Assembly (NCBI GenBank): GCA_030630935.1
Contig: DAOVMD010000006.1
Coordinates: 1-19,958, forward strand
Origin: Candidatus Mcinerneyibacteriota bacterium
Lineage (GTDB): Bacteria; AUK180; JAQVHJ01
Direction: 5' to 3'
Length of the DNA stretch: 19,958 nucleotides
The notes under the pieces are model-generated. The model was not told the origin of the DNA, made no database searches, and saw only the letters and a list, made by a program, of their open reading frames with translations. The position numbers and the translations under genes are program-made. Of the stretch, positions 14,106 to 19,958 are shown in pieces (position 1 is the first letter of the stretch; each line of letters begins with the position of its first letter).

Positions 14106-15053
14106 CTAATATTTCCTATTATATTGTCTTCTTATTTCGAAGAAGATTCCTCTCTTTTCTTTTTTTGTAACTATTCGTTTTTGGTCAAGCAGAATTCGGA
14201 TATATTTTTGAAGTTCTGCTATTTTAATATTGAGAATAATATTCAAATCTTTAATTGTCATAGGTCTCCTTGAAATTGCGGAGAGAATCAGTTTATCAAT
14301 ACTGGTTGAATGTTCACGGAAATATTTATCTTTATCCTTGAATTTTGCAATGATTTCCGAACCTGGGATCATTTTTTTAATTTTCAGTAATTCTTTTTTA
14401 GAGACTTGTTTGACCCAGGCTTCTGTTCCAGGCCTATCTAAAGTATTCAGCTGGATCTTTTCAGGTTTCAATTTATCCAGGAGCTCTTTTATTTTGAGGA
14501 TTTCTTTTCTGGAATCGTTTATGCCTTTTATAATAAATATCTCTATCCATAATTGGCCTTTAAACATTTTTCTAAATTCAATAAGCCCGTCGATTATTTT
14601 CTTTAGGTTTAATTTGGAATGTGGTTTATTAATTTTTTTGAAAGTTTTTAATGTAACTGAATCAATTGACGGAATTACTATGTCAGCTTGAGCTAAATCC
14701 TTTCTGACCTGTTCTCTATATAACAACGACCCGTTTGTCAGCACGGCGATCTTATATTGTGGATATTTCATTTTTAAATACACAATGATTTTGCCGATTA
14801 TTGAACTAAGAGTAGGTTCACCTGATCCGGAGAAGGTGATATAGTCGAGTTTTGGTTTGACCTTAAGGAAACTATTTAATTCCCTAATTAGATTTCTGTA
14901 AGGGAAAAATTCTTTTCTTCGGATTGTTTTGTTGGTAGTTTTTCCGCATTCACAATAAACACAGTCATAAGTACAGGTTTTAAATGGGACTAGGTCAATC
15001 CCGAGAGAAATCCCAAGTCTTCTTGATGGCACCGGTCCAAAAAGATATTTCAT
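14106..15053 (-). CDS. Radical SAM protein, COG0731-like
   Basis: A 315-residue radical S-adenosylmethionine enzyme. The 4Fe-4S motif is CTYDCVYC (C27, C31, C34), preceded by FGPVPSRRLGISLGIDLVPF, typical of the COG0731 group whose archaeal members make wyosine-type tRNA bases. Bacterial members of this type have mostly unknown substrates. The glycine-rich SAM-binding strand GSGEPTL is at about residues 76-82. Residues about 245-315 look like a winged-helix domain (TIKDLNIILNIKIAELQKY), common in this subgroup and probably a nucleic-acid or partner-binding part. AAGGAG lies close before the ATG, and a good promoter is at 15082-15110. It is a single-gene unit, divergent from the HD-GYP operon. 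Confidence 0.9.
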   Translation of the reverse strand: MKYLFGPVPSRRLGISLGIDLVPFKTCTYDCVYCECGKTTNKTIRRKEFFPYRNLIRELNSFLKVKPKLDYITFSGSGEPTLSSIIGKIIVYLKMKYPQYKIAVLTNGSLLYREQVRKDLAQADIVIPSIDSVTLKTFKKINKPHSKLNLKKIIDGLIEFRKMFKGQLWIEIFIIKGINDSRKEILKIKELLDKLKPEKIQLNTLDRPGTEAWVKQVSKKELLKIKKMIPGSEIIAKFKDKDKYFREHSTSIDKLILSAISRRPMTIKDLNIILNIKIAELQKYIRILLDQKRIVTKKEKRGIFFEIRRQYNRKY

Positions 15054-15849: not shown

Positions 15850-15878
15850 TTGACATAAATTACTAAATTTGTTATACT
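15850..15878 (+). promoter_or_regulatory. Sigma70-type promoter of the HD-GYP/ComFB/flavodiiron operon
   Basis: TTGACA (15850-15855), 17-base spacer, TATACT (15873-15878), eleven of twelve consensus positions. Transcription would start near 15885, giving a short leader with AAGGAG at 15894-15899. Confidence 0.75.
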
Positions 15879-15910
15879 ATACATAATAATGACAAGGAGT
15901 TTTTTTAGTA

Positions 15911-17080
15911 ATGACGATGGAGCAACTAGAGAAGCAGTTTAATAAATTGATAGAGATTGGGATATCTCTTACAAGTGAGCATAACTTAGAGAAACTTTTA
16001 TCAACGATTGTTTCTGAAGCCCGCGCATTTACGTGTGCCGATGCCGGTTCTCTTTATATTAAGGAAGGCGATGAATTGGTATTTATGATCAGCCAGAATG
16101 ATACTATTAGAAATCGAGATGGTGCAGACGAAGAGAAGAAAGCTTACAAGAAATTCACATTGCCTATTAACAAGAAGAATCTTGCCGGCTATGTTGCATT
16201 TACCGGGCAGATTTTAAATATTCCTGACGCGTATAATATCCCTGAAGATGTTGAATACAGTCATAAAAAAACTTTTGATAAGCAGTACAACTATAAAACT
16301 GTTTCGATGTTAATGATTCCCATGACCGATAATGAAGGAGAGATTACTGGTGTACTTCAATTAATAAATTCTTTACAGAATCATGGTCAAGCGGTTCCTT
16401 TTAAAAAGGAGCAGGAGCAGATTATTCTTTCAATGGCTTCACAAGCGGCGGTTGCAATTAACAATGCAAAATTAACCGAAGATATCAAGAAGGCGCATTA
16501 TAATACAATTATCCGTCTTGCAGTTGCTGCAGAATATAAAGATGAAGATACAGCATTACATATTAAAAGGATGAGTGAATACTCTGCTATTATTGCTAAG
16601 GGTATGGGGTTTGATGATAAATATGTTGAGAATATCCGTTTTGCGAGTCCTATGCATGACATTGGCAAGATCGGGATTCCTGACAGGATTTTATTAAAGC
16701 CAGCCAAGCTTGATAAGGAAGAATGGCAAGTGATGATGTCACATACTACGATAGGCGGTGATATCCTGAAGAATCCTGATTCAGATATTATTGCACTTTC
16801 AAGAACCATTGCATTATCCCACCATGAGAAATTTAACGGTAAGGGTTATCCTTTTGGTATCCAGGGTGATGATATTCCCTTAGAAGGGAGGATTGTCGCA
16901 CTTGCAGATGTGTTTGATGCCCTTTCTTCAAGAAGACCGTACAAAGAACCGTGGCCTTTAGAGAAGATTACCAACCTGATATCTGAAGAGCGCGGTGAAC
17001 AATTTGACCCGACTGTTGTTGATGTATTTCAGGAGAATTTTGAAGAGATACTGAAGGTTCGTGATGAATTTATTGAATAA
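15911..17080 (+). CDS. GAF/HD-GYP domain protein, predicted cyclic-di-GMP phosphodiesterase
   Basis: A 389-residue cytosolic signalling enzyme. Residues about 10-190 are a GAF sensor domain (start of the fold near LEKLLSTIVSEA, end near QAAVAINNAKL). Residues about 200-385 are an HD-GYP domain. The metal and catalytic motifs are intact: H217, H249-D250 in MHDIGKIGIPD, and HHEKFNGKGYP at 304-314. The enzyme should therefore break down cyclic-di-GMP, with the GAF ligand (possibly a small molecule, haem or nucleotide) setting its activity. AAGGAG lies 11 bases before the ATG; a second in-frame ATG two codons later is also possible. First gene of the operon, 22 bp before the ComFB-like gene. Confidence 0.93.
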   Translation: MTMEQLEKQFNKLIEIGISLTSEHNLEKLLSTIVSEARAFTCADAGSLYIKEGDELVFMISQNDTIRNRDGADEEKKAYKKFTLPINKKNLAGYVAFTGQILNIPDAYNIPEDVEYSHKKTFDKQYNYKTVSMLMIPMTDNEGEITGVLQLINSLQNHGQAVPFKKEQEQIILSMASQAAVAINNAKLTEDIKKAHYNTIIRLAVAAEYKDEDTALHIKRMSEYSAIIAKGMGFDDKYVENIRFASPMHDIGKIGIPDRILLKPAKLDKEEWQVMMSHTTIGGDILKNPDSDIIALSRTIALSHHEKFNGKGYPFGIQGDDIPLEGRIVALADVFDALSSRRPYKEPWPLEKITNLISEERGEQFDPTVVDVFQENFEEILKVRDEFIE

Positions 17081-17102
17081 TAATTAAATTTGGAGGATTT
17101 AA

Positions 17103-17384
17103 ATGGCAATTAAAAATTATTTAGAAGATATTGTTCAGAGTATTGTTAAGGAAGAATCGGAAAAGGATCCTATACTCAAAGCTTCAAAAATCTTACAAGA
17201 AGATGTAATAGCTTATACCCTCAATCATCTAAAACCAAAATATGCGCGAACAAGAAAGGGATATATTTTAACAGAGGTTGAGATGGCTTCTGAACAACTC
17301 CGTGCAGAGATTTTGGTTAAAGTTTTAAAAGCGATAAAAGTTATTAAGGAGCACCCTAAAGGTAAAGAGATAGAGAAGCTATAA
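17103..17384 (+). CDS. ComFB-family protein, possible cyclic-dinucleotide receptor
   Basis: A 93-residue helical protein resembling the ComFB (late competence development) family: an N-terminal NYLEDIVQSIV helix, DVIAYTLNHLKPKYARTRKG, and the C-terminal SEQLRAEILVKVLKAIKVI. Family members have been reported to bind cyclic di-nucleotides, which fits its place directly after the HD-GYP gene. Bacillus ComFB carries zinc-binding cysteines; this one has no cysteine at all. GGAGG lies six bases upstream of the ATG. The call rests on pattern recognition by eye, so a profile match would be useful. Confidence 0.7.
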   Translation: MAIKNYLEDIVQSIVKEESEKDPILKASKILQEDVIAYTLNHLKPKYARTRKGYILTEVEMASEQLRAEILVKVLKAIKVIKEHPKGKEIEKL

Positions 17385-17425
17385 TTTTTATTATCCCACC
17401 CACAATTTATTAAAGAAAGGTACTT

Positions 17426-18604
17426 ATGAGATTTATTATTATAGGAGATGGTGTTGCTGGTGATTCTGCAGCGATGTCTATCCGGCAAGTAGACCAGGAA
17501 TCTGAAATTTTTATTTTTACTGATGAATCGATTCCATTTTATTACCGACCGCGATTGATTGATGTTGTGTCAGGTGAAATTGAATTGAATAGAATTATTA
17601 TCCATAATCAAGGTTTTTATAAGAACAAAAATATTAAATTATTTTTATCATCTCGAATAAAAGAGATTAACACAAAAAAGAATTTTATATTAACGGAATC
17701 CGGAGAAGAGTTTACTTATGATAAGCTCTTAATTGCCGCAGGCGCTCATCCTTTTATTCCCCCGATTTCCGGTTCGGATAAGGATGGAGTTATAGCTTTA
17801 AGAGACGCTGCTGATTTAGAGAGGATTCAAAAATTTCTCCCCGGCATAAATAAAGTTATCATGATCGGCGGAGGGTTATTGGGTCTTGAAACGGGCAATG
17901 CATTTCTCAAACAGGGGAAGCAAGTTTCAGTAATTGAATTTTTTAATAGACTTCTTCCAAGACAATTAGATGGAGAAGGAGCAAGCATTCTAAAGAGTCA
18001 ACTTGAATTAAAAGGTCTGAGCTTTTTTCTGGATGAAGTGACAGAAGAAATTACGGGTTCGGATCAGATTTCCGGCATTAAGACCAAATCGGGAAAAGAA
18101 ATTCCAGGTGAGCTTGTGGTTATTTCTGCTGGTGTAAGGTCAAATCTTGATATCATCAGGGAGACTCCAATTAAAATTAATAAAGCAATTACTGTAAATG
18201 AATACCTTCAGACATCTGTTTCGAATATATATGCCGCTGGTGATTGTGCCGAGGTTAACGGTCGGTTCTACGGGATTTACCCGCCATCAATGGAACAGGG
18301 TAAGGCTGCCGGATTCAATATCGCAGGGAAAGAAATGAAGTATGAGGATATTCCAACTTCACATAAATTAAAGGTCGTAGGAATTGATTTATTCTGTGTC
18401 GGGAAACTTGATATGGAAAATAAACTTAAGACAATTTCATACACGAACCAGGATGGTTATATTTATAAAAAAGCATTTTTAGAAGATGATAAGATTGTTG
18501 GGGCAATGTTATTAGGAAACCTTGATGGTGCATCTGAGATTGAGGCTGCGATCTTGAATAATTCTGATTCACAAGCAGTTGAAAATTATTTTAAGGAGAA
18601 ATAA
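17426..18604 (+). CDS. FAD/NAD-dependent oxidoreductase, NADH:rubredoxin reductase-like
   Basis: A 392-residue flavoprotein of the pyridine nucleotide-disulfide reductase superfamily, most like NADH:rubredoxin or NADH:flavorubredoxin reductases. FAD-binding GDGVAG is at residues 7-12, NAD-binding GGGLLGLETG at 148-157 with an acidic residue (E171) at the end of the second strand (suggesting NADH over NADPH), and the second FAD motif NIYAAGDCAE at 267-276. There is no redox-active CxxC, as expected for this group. It should pass electrons from NADH to a rubredoxin or directly to the flavodiiron protein next door. No rubredoxin gene is in the window. A GAAAGG-type ribosome site precedes the ATG. 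Confidence 0.88.
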   Translation: MRFIIIGDGVAGDSAAMSIRQVDQESEIFIFTDESIPFYYRPRLIDVVSGEIELNRIIIHNQGFYKNKNIKLFLSSRIKEINTKKNFILTESGEEFTYDKLLIAAGAHPFIPPISGSDKDGVIALRDAADLERIQKFLPGINKVIMIGGGLLGLETGNAFLKQGKQVSVIEFFNRLLPRQLDGEGASILKSQLELKGLSFFLDEVTEEITGSDQISGIKTKSGKEIPGELVVISAGVRSNLDIIRETPIKINKAITVNEYLQTSVSNIYAAGDCAEVNGRFYGIYPPSMEQGKAAGFNIAGKEMKYEDIPTSHKLKVVGIDLFCVGKLDMENKLKTISYTNQDGYIYKKAFLEDDKIVGAMLLGNLDGASEIEAAILNNSDSQAVENYFKEK

Positions 18605-18606
18605 TC

Positions 18607-19809
18607 ATGGACGCAGTTAATATTAAAAACTCTATTCATTGGGTCGGAGCATTTGATCCGGATCTTGATGTTTTTGATTTAATAATGCCATTGAAACGTG
18701 GTACCACTTATAACTCATATCTCATTATTGATGAGAAGATAGCTTTAGTTGATACAGTCAAGAAAGGTTTTGAAGACGAATGGCTTAGCCGGATACAATC
18801 TGTAATTTCACCGGAAAAAATTGATTATATTATCCTAAACCATTTTGAGTTAGACCATTCTGCAAACCTGACAACTATTCTGGAGAAAGCTCCCAATGCG
18901 AAGATTGTGATTTCAAGGAATGCTCAATTATTTTTAAAGGGGACATTTAACCATGATTTTGACAATGTGATTTTAGTGAATGACGGTGATGAAATTAGTC
19001 TTGGTAAAAAAACGATTAAGTTTTTCAAGGCTCCATTTATGCACTGGCCTGATACTTTATTTAATTATTTAGTTGAAGATGAAATGATAATAACGAGTGA
19101 TGCGTTTGGTGCTCATGTTTGTGATAAGCGCATTTTTAACGATCTTACGGATGACTATTTACACGATTTTGAATACTATTATCATGTGATTATGTCACCG
19201 TTTAAAAGCTTTGTGCTTGCAGCTCTTGATAAGATTAAGGACTTGAAAATTTCTGTTATTTGTCCTGCACATGGACCGATTCTGAGAAGAGATGCAGATT
19301 TATATTTGAAGAAATATCGAGTCTGGAGTACATTACCGGCAAAAGATAAGATTAAAGTTTTTATTGCATACGCAAGTATATACGGTAGCACCAGGAAAAT
19401 GGCTGAAAAAATTGCAGAAGGACTTAAAAATGATAAAATTAAAGTTGAATTATACGATATCGTAAATGATTCAGAAAAATATGACAACCTGCCTTATATT
19501 CTTGACCAATCTGATTGTATACTAATAGGTTCACCGACAATTGTTTCTGCACCAATACATCCTGTTTGGGATTTTTGCGCAAATTTGATTATGATAAATA
19601 AAAGGAAAAAATTCTCAGGAACCTTCACATCTTTTGGCTGGAACGGGGACTCTGTTTCTGTGATTGAAGGTTTATTAAATGGAATGCACTTTAAGCTTAT
19701 TTCAGAAGGTTTAAAGGTAAACATGGTTCCGGATAAAAGTGACCATGATTTATGTGTTTCCTGGGGTAAGGAAATTGCAGAAGCCTTAAAGAATAAAATT
19801 AAACTATAA
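18607..19809 (+). CDS. fprA: Flavodiiron protein (FprA type), O2 and/or NO reductase
   Basis: A 400-residue flavodiiron protein: an N-terminal beta-lactamase-like diiron domain (residues 1-245) and a flavodoxin domain (250-400). All diiron ligands are visible: H79, E81, D83 (NHFELDHS), H146 (APFMHWPDT), D165 (SDAFGAH) and H222 (CPAHGP). The flavodoxin domain has the FMN loop YASIYGSTRKMA at 255-266 and GSPTIVSAP near 308-316. The length is that of the simple two-domain class with no fused rubredoxin or reductase. It should reduce O2 to water or NO to N2O. It begins two bases after the reductase stop, with AAGGAG inside that gene's last codons, so translation is coupled. Confidence 0.95.
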   Translation: MDAVNIKNSIHWVGAFDPDLDVFDLIMPLKRGTTYNSYLIIDEKIALVDTVKKGFEDEWLSRIQSVISPEKIDYIILNHFELDHSANLTTILEKAPNAKIVISRNAQLFLKGTFNHDFDNVILVNDGDEISLGKKTIKFFKAPFMHWPDTLFNYLVEDEMIITSDAFGAHVCDKRIFNDLTDDYLHDFEYYYHVIMSPFKSFVLAALDKIKDLKISVICPAHGPILRRDADLYLKKYRVWSTLPAKDKIKVFIAYASIYGSTRKMAEKIAEGLKNDKIKVELYDIVNDSEKYDNLPYILDQSDCILIGSPTIVSAPIHPVWDFCANLIMINKRKKFSGTFTSFGWNGDSVSVIEGLLNGMHFKLISEGLKVNMVPDKSDHDLCVSWGKEIAEALKNKIKL

Positions 19810-19863: not shown

Positions 19864-19958
19864 ATGAATGATATAGATATTCGCAAACTTTTTGTTGCGG
19901 ATGAAACTTTTAAGTACTCGATTAGAGTAAATAAAAGGTCAAAGTATATTCGAATTAC
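19864..19958 (+). CDS. YgjP-like metallopeptidase domain protein (partial, N-terminus)
   Basis: The first 31 codons of a gene running past the window edge, with GAGG five bases before the ATG. The visible FKYSIRVNKRSKYIRI resembles the start of YgjP/DUF45-type zinc peptidases, which begin with a similar basic strand. The HExxH active site would lie beyond the window, so the call is tentative. It may be the last gene of the flavodiiron operon (54-bp gap). Confidence 0.5.
   Translation, partial: MNDIDIRKLFVADETFKYSIRVNKRSKYIRI

Follow-up and report, generated by a model that had tools for sequence, protein, structure and literature searches.

Known parts in a lineage-specific arrangement: a putative operon of HD-GYP, ComFB and flavoprotein genes behind one promoter in a Candidatus Mcinerneyibacteriota genome

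Can cyclic-di-GMP (c-di-GMP) signalling and the removal of oxygen or nitric oxide (NO) be tied together by gene order? The question is raised by contig DAOVMD010000006.1 of a Candidatus Mcinerneyibacteriota bacterium (GenBank assembly GCA_030630935.1), whose 19,958 nucleotides are the window analysed here, and in which genes for a GAF-HD-GYP protein, a ComFB protein, an NADH:rubredoxin oxidoreductase-type flavoprotein (NROR) and a flavodiiron protein (FDP) follow one another behind a promoter. The window makes up one entire contig (G000:C396); the draft genome, G000, comprises 3.16 Mb in 471 contigs and is approximately 80% complete. A first-pass annotation, made from the sequence alone, had proposed that one strong promoter drives the four genes, that they couple a second-messenger decision to O2 or NO removal, perhaps with the GAF domain as gas or redox sensor, and that they are a candidate for a new system. 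We propose, with moderate confidence, a plainer answer: a family-specific operon of known parts under a single vegetative-type promoter, to which the FDP gene was attached in the window lineage, and in which signalling and gas removal would be coupled by shared expression. Its elements are as follows.

15850-15878, + strand: sigma-70/sigma-A type promoter (TTGACA, 17-nt spacer ending in TGT, TATACT), a consensus match of 11/12 plus TG extension
15911-17080, + strand: GAF-HD-GYP protein, 389 amino acids (Pfam HD_5 3e-27, GAF 2.6e-15)
17103-17384, + strand: ComFB/CdgR family protein, 93 amino acids (PF10719 4e-19)
17426-18604, + strand: NROR, 392 amino acids (Pyr_redox_2 6e-52, Rubredoxin_C 4e-15)
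18607-19809, + strand: class A FDP, 400 amino acids (ODP 1e-23, Flavodoxin_1 8e-9)

The four open reading frames (ORFs) are intact, lie on the + strand between 15911 and 19809 and are separated by 22, 41 and 2 bp; the ORF calls and the family assignments by Pfam and NCBIfam (GAF and HD_5/HD; ComFB; Pyr_redox_2 and Rubredoxin_C; ODP and flavodoxin) agree with the gene identities, order and gaps given in the first-pass annotation. As the gene at 14106-15053 is divergently oriented, the HD-GYP gene is the first of the set. The promoter ahead of it is the best-scoring in the region and the only TG-extended site of 11/12 quality in the 20-kb window, with none in 10 simulated windows; promoter-like sites in the region are in weak excess overall (33 observed against 24.3 expected, standard deviation 4.9). 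A nearly identical element, amid decayed flanking bases, precedes the same genes in a sister genus (G001, described below), where a separate promoter scan also finds it. The claim of one strong promoter thus holds, and the split that would have told against it was not seen: our scan found no terminator-like site within the four-gene set, and the idea that such a site, or a strong promoter within the set, divides it was rejected, internal promoter-like sites reaching just 9-10/12. From this layout we infer that the four genes are co-transcribed. As a separate observation, an Acido-Lenti-1 RNA (Rfam RF01687; 15732-15777, + strand; 46 bits against a gathering score of 37) lies 73 bp 5' of the promoter; this RNA family occurs near group II introns.

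The first gene encodes a predicted c-di-GMP phosphodiesterase. A residue check against the published positions (PMC4159591) located all eight HD-GYP metal ligands (D213, H217, H249, D250, H278, H304, H305 and D333) as well as the catalytic D211/K253 pair and the GYP motif at 312-314, that is, the HD and GYP motifs, ligands and catalytic residues of the PmGH type. In the GAF domain we saw no hint of haem or iron binding. Across seven class orthologues in which the His and Cys positions were examined, neither residue is conserved within this domain, so that it has neither the conserved His haem ligand nor the Cys iron ligand expected of a haem-, NO- or O2-sensing GAF; His24 and His118 of the GAF region are common to the two family members only. 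Its matches among solved GAF domains are mostly of the cyclic-nucleotide kind (CyaB2 (1ykd), PDE5 and PDE2), PmGH being the exception. Because it lacks conserved His or Cys residues and resembles cyclic-nucleotide GAFs, the idea of a gas or redox sensor is unsupported. The NKFDE motif, which belongs to cyclic-nucleotide GAF domains, is degenerate in the window protein and in those of the class, though homology is clear. An AlphaFold model of the GAF-HD-GYP protein, built from two sequences, had a predicted local distance difference test (pLDDT) score of 37 and was discarded.

The second gene product belongs to the ComFB/CdgR family by both profile and fold. It scores 68.9 bits against PF10719 (cut-off 25), its profile matches are 4wai and, more weakly, 8hja, and its AlphaFold model (mean pLDDT 73) is all-helical; the top five Foldseek hits to this model are all 4wai or 8hja (probability 0.99-1.00, E 0.06-0.11), no other structure reaching high probability. 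The protein is without the CxCxxC cysteines that most of its relatives, the more distant ones compared, keep. ComFB/CdgR proteins are receptors of c-di-GMP and cyclic-di-AMP (c-di-AMP), both of which are bound in cyanobacteria (PMC12313861, PMC13075795), and the window protein is a predicted cyclic-dinucleotide receptor. Because ComFB proteins elsewhere are such receptors, the HD-GYP and ComFB proteins fit a signalling pair, which is plausible here as G000 encodes makers of both dinucleotides, with 11 GGDEF matches and one DAC (c-di-AMP cyclase).

The two downstream genes would form an electron-transfer pair of a kind already known. NROR has the FAD/NADH Rossmann domains and Rubredoxin_C of its type, and its best PDB match is 3klj (E=1e-45), named in the PDB as an NirB-family NAD(FAD)-dependent dehydrogenase, which we take to be the Clostridium acetobutylicum NADH:rubredoxin oxidoreductase; the same fold also occurs in the NirB N-terminal domain and in an aldehyde oxidoreductase subunit. 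In several genomes, close NROR homologues adjoin genes for rubredoxin (as in L150 and L151), FDP or rubrerythrin-like proteins. The FDP carries its diiron ligands (H79-x-E81-x-D83, H146, D165 and H222, with spacings of 62, 18 and 56) and a flavodoxin domain and has no rubredoxin or other extra domain, as in class A, and its nearest solved relative is 1ycf (E=4e-72). Since the FDP start lies 2 bp past the NROR stop, the two genes are probably translationally coupled. NADH:rubredoxin oxidoreductase, rubredoxin and FDP make up an established O2/NO-reducing chain (PMC6033852). G000 encodes a rubredoxin (G000:C128), so the chain from NADH to FDP is complete in principle, and we infer an electron flow from NADH via NROR and this rubredoxin to FDP and on to O2 or NO. 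The rubredoxin gene lies in a PerR/Fur-desulfoferrodoxin-rubredoxin cluster at a contig edge (L125 1-1057, - strand), and that cluster may adjoin a second FDP gene, of the class type, situated past the edge and missing from the assembly.

How far the arrangement is conserved bears directly on what it means. Only one other genome of the family was found in our search, G001 (JAQVHJ01), which represents a different genus; both family members are incomplete drafts. In G001 the HD-GYP, ComFB and NROR genes are likewise co-oriented, spaced 18 and 47 bp apart and preceded by a divergent gene; their nucleotide identities to the window genes are 74%, 73% and 67%, respectively, and the G001 GAF-HD-GYP protein is 81% identical to that of the window. 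The outcome that the first-pass annotation named as refuting, relatives never keeping the genes together, was therefore not seen for these three genes, whose promoter is kept too, but was seen for the FDP gene, which is absent from the G001 operon; the arrangement was absent from the other genomes sampled. In G001, a YgjP gene follows NROR after 49 bp, and its counterpart in the window begins 54 bp past FDP and runs off the contig:

19864-19958, + strand: start of a YgjP-like metallopeptidase gene, truncated by the contig end; translation MNDIDIRKLFVADETFKYSIRVNKRSKYIRI, resembling G001 YgjP

The gene set may extend beyond FDP into this ORF. We considered whether the FDP gene is an artefact of contig joining and judged this unlikely, because it is flanked by NROR and by the YgjP gene that follows NROR in G001, and has a GC content of 0.337, against 0.329 for the window. 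G001 has one detected FDP, encoded on a different contig and sharing just 35% identity with the window FDP. The window FDP is not orthologous to the FDPs of the class, and those of the sister family described below form a separate branch from it (support 0.997). FDP may have been gained in the window lineage or lost in the sister genus. On the same strand downstream of the operon, G001 also encodes a dCache class III nucleotide cyclase (L007 1903-4020, - strand), a possible source of GAF ligand.

Comparisons beyond the family, which are samples and not a census, place the operon among differently arranged relatives. In five sister-family genomes of the same class (G002-G006), orthologues of GAF-HD-GYP are found at 49-52% identity, and in all five (L062-L066) the genes that come next encode an SLH-domain protein, what is probably a winged-helix protein (no Pfam match), an FHA protein in some, and an NFACT-like protein; this neighbourhood is better conserved than that of the window. 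The FDP genes of this sister family mostly lie beside genes of oxidative stress or related redox functions (PerR/Fur, rubrerythrin or ferritin-like, desulfoferrodoxin, flavin reductase and peroxiredoxin). Among 18 neighbourhoods of the window FDP's nearest relatives, one (G361) has a similar NROR close by, together with three rubrerythrin-like genes, and one (G148) has an FDP-NROR fusion of 849 amino acids. The distant genome G361 holds close homologues of all four proteins (GAF-HD-GYP at 55%, NROR at 41%, FDP at 45% and three ComFB), the NROR, rubrerythrin-like and FDP genes lying on contig C5 and the HD-GYP and ComFB genes on other contigs (L132 on C5, L157 on C73, and C4, C88 and C101). In G272, a rubredoxin gene lies directly 5' of a GAF-HD-GYP gene on the same strand (L159 6057-6257, - strand).

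In the reading that we favour, the GAF-regulated HD-GYP phosphodiesterase would lower c-di-GMP, the ComFB/CdgR-type receptor would read the cyclic-dinucleotide level, NROR would be co-expressed from the same promoter, and the class A FDP would have been added behind the reductase in the window lineage. The link between signalling and gas removal would then most likely run through shared expression and not through gas sensing by the GAF domain. Several observations weigh against this reading. The three-gene core is found in two genomes only and all four genes in one only, which makes for a weak test of whether selection for function holds the set together; none of the five sister-family genomes has ComFB or a comparable reductase, and their GAF-HD-GYP gene sits in the quite different conserved neighbourhood described above. 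The direct passage from NROR to YgjP in G001 counts specifically against the gas link, and as FDP is absent from that operon, any coupling of the two functions would be confined to the window lineage.

An unlikely but serious alternative is that a rearrangement in the ancestor of the family brought the HD-GYP, ComFB and reductase genes together, that FDP was inserted later or lost in the sister, and that the common promoter carries no regulatory meaning. ComFB was present in 37 of the 386 genomes of the spread sampled, and among approximately 48 ComFB neighbourhoods elsewhere, drawn from this spread and from a profile scan of contigs, none had FDP nearby; HD-GYP occurred once, more than 2 kb away, and a remote NROR-like protein once, none of them adjacent. 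The contig scan by itself returned seven ComFB relatives, of which only that of G001 has the window context. Around 15 close GAF-HD-GYP homologues from beyond the class, the neighbouring genes are unrelated, none being ComFB, NROR or FDP. The four-gene order is not kept in relatives, and the FDP link is already missing one genus away. Against mere accretion, however, stands the maintenance of core order and promoter between two genera whose genes have diverged to 67-74% nucleotide identity.

A further possibility, which we regard as improbable, is that the GAF domain binds cyclic AMP (cAMP) or another cyclic nucleotide and thereby gates the phosphodiesterase, so that the operon links cAMP to c-di-GMP and the flavoproteins are co-expressed housekeeping enzymes. 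The matches to CyaB2, PDE5 and PDE2 point in this direction, as do the cyclase downstream of the G001 operon and the action of cAMP, the one GAF-HD-GYP ligand that a review names, on the GAF-HD-GYP protein Tlr0485 (PMC8846402). The degenerate NKFDE motif speaks against it, and the G001 cyclase is several genes away from the operon, while the window contig ends before any counterpart. We give little credence to a dedicated redox-signalling module of HD-GYP, ComFB and NADH flavoprotein, in which the NADH/rubredoxin state, acting via the reductase or the GAF domain, would set c-di-GMP and ComFB, with FDP recruited in one lineage as terminal oxidase. Least credible of all is a dedicated gas-responsive c-di-GMP switch, with haem, iron, NO or O2 bound at the GAF domain and the HD-GYP protein detecting the same gas as FDP removes: the four genes do share one operon, c-di-GMP enzymes that sense O2 or redox state through domains of other kinds exist, such as a hemerythrin-HD-GYP protein (PMC8846402), and the two family members share His24 and His118, but the seven orthologues conserve no GAF His or Cys, the solved matches, PmGH excepted, are of cyclic-nucleotide type, and G001 keeps its 81% identical protein in an operon without FDP.

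Of the coupling first suggested for this locus, then, the gene set behind one promoter stands, the gas-sensing GAF is unsupported and the FDP is absent from the operon in the sister genus. The candidacy as a new system is weakened, with three genes in a two-genome family and FDP there in one, even though we did not find the arrangement described: our search returned no literature on HD-GYP with flavodiiron proteins and, by title and abstract, nothing relevant on flavodiiron proteins with c-di-GMP, most subscription papers lying outside the search. If co-expression is functional, gene order, in place of a gas-sensing domain, would tie a cyclic-dinucleotide decision to NADH-driven O2/NO removal. 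ComFB, known chiefly from work on cyanobacteria and Bacillus, would then gain a phosphodiesterase partner encoded in its own operon.

Each part of the operon has a counterpart among known systems. E. coli norVW is likewise a pair of FDP and NADH reductase genes, from which the window pair differs in that its FDP is without a rubredoxin domain, the gene order is reversed and no NorR-type regulator was seen. The enzyme types are also those of the NROR-rubredoxin-FDP chain and of the class F FDPs in which it is fused, e.g. Clostridioides difficile CD1623 (PMC6033852); the window reductase adjoins FDP, but the rubredoxin is encoded elsewhere, the polypeptides are separate and c-di-GMP genes precede them. 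Tlr0485 of Thermosynechococcus vulcanus joins a GAF1 domain to HD-GYP as the window protein does, a likeness by description and not by sequence, and is cAMP-responsive, whereas the cyclic-nucleotide motif of the window protein is degenerate. PmGH, the GAF-HD-GYP protein of Persephonella marina (PDB 4MCW; E=8e-80), has the same domain order and shares all eight metal-ligand positions, the catalytic Asp/Lys pair and GYP; its E185 is replaced by Asp, a change known in the eight-ligand HD-GYP group (PMC4159591), and the next triplet is D-T-A in place of E/D-T-G. The ComFB/CdgR proteins of Bacillus (4wai) and Synechocystis (8hja) have family profile and fold in common with the window protein, whose gene does not adjoin comF or hfq genes; the aligned stretch of 8hja is also without the CxCxxC cysteines, whereas 4wai keeps them. 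All parts of the operon are thus of known kinds, and it is their arrangement, small and lineage-specific, that sets this locus apart.

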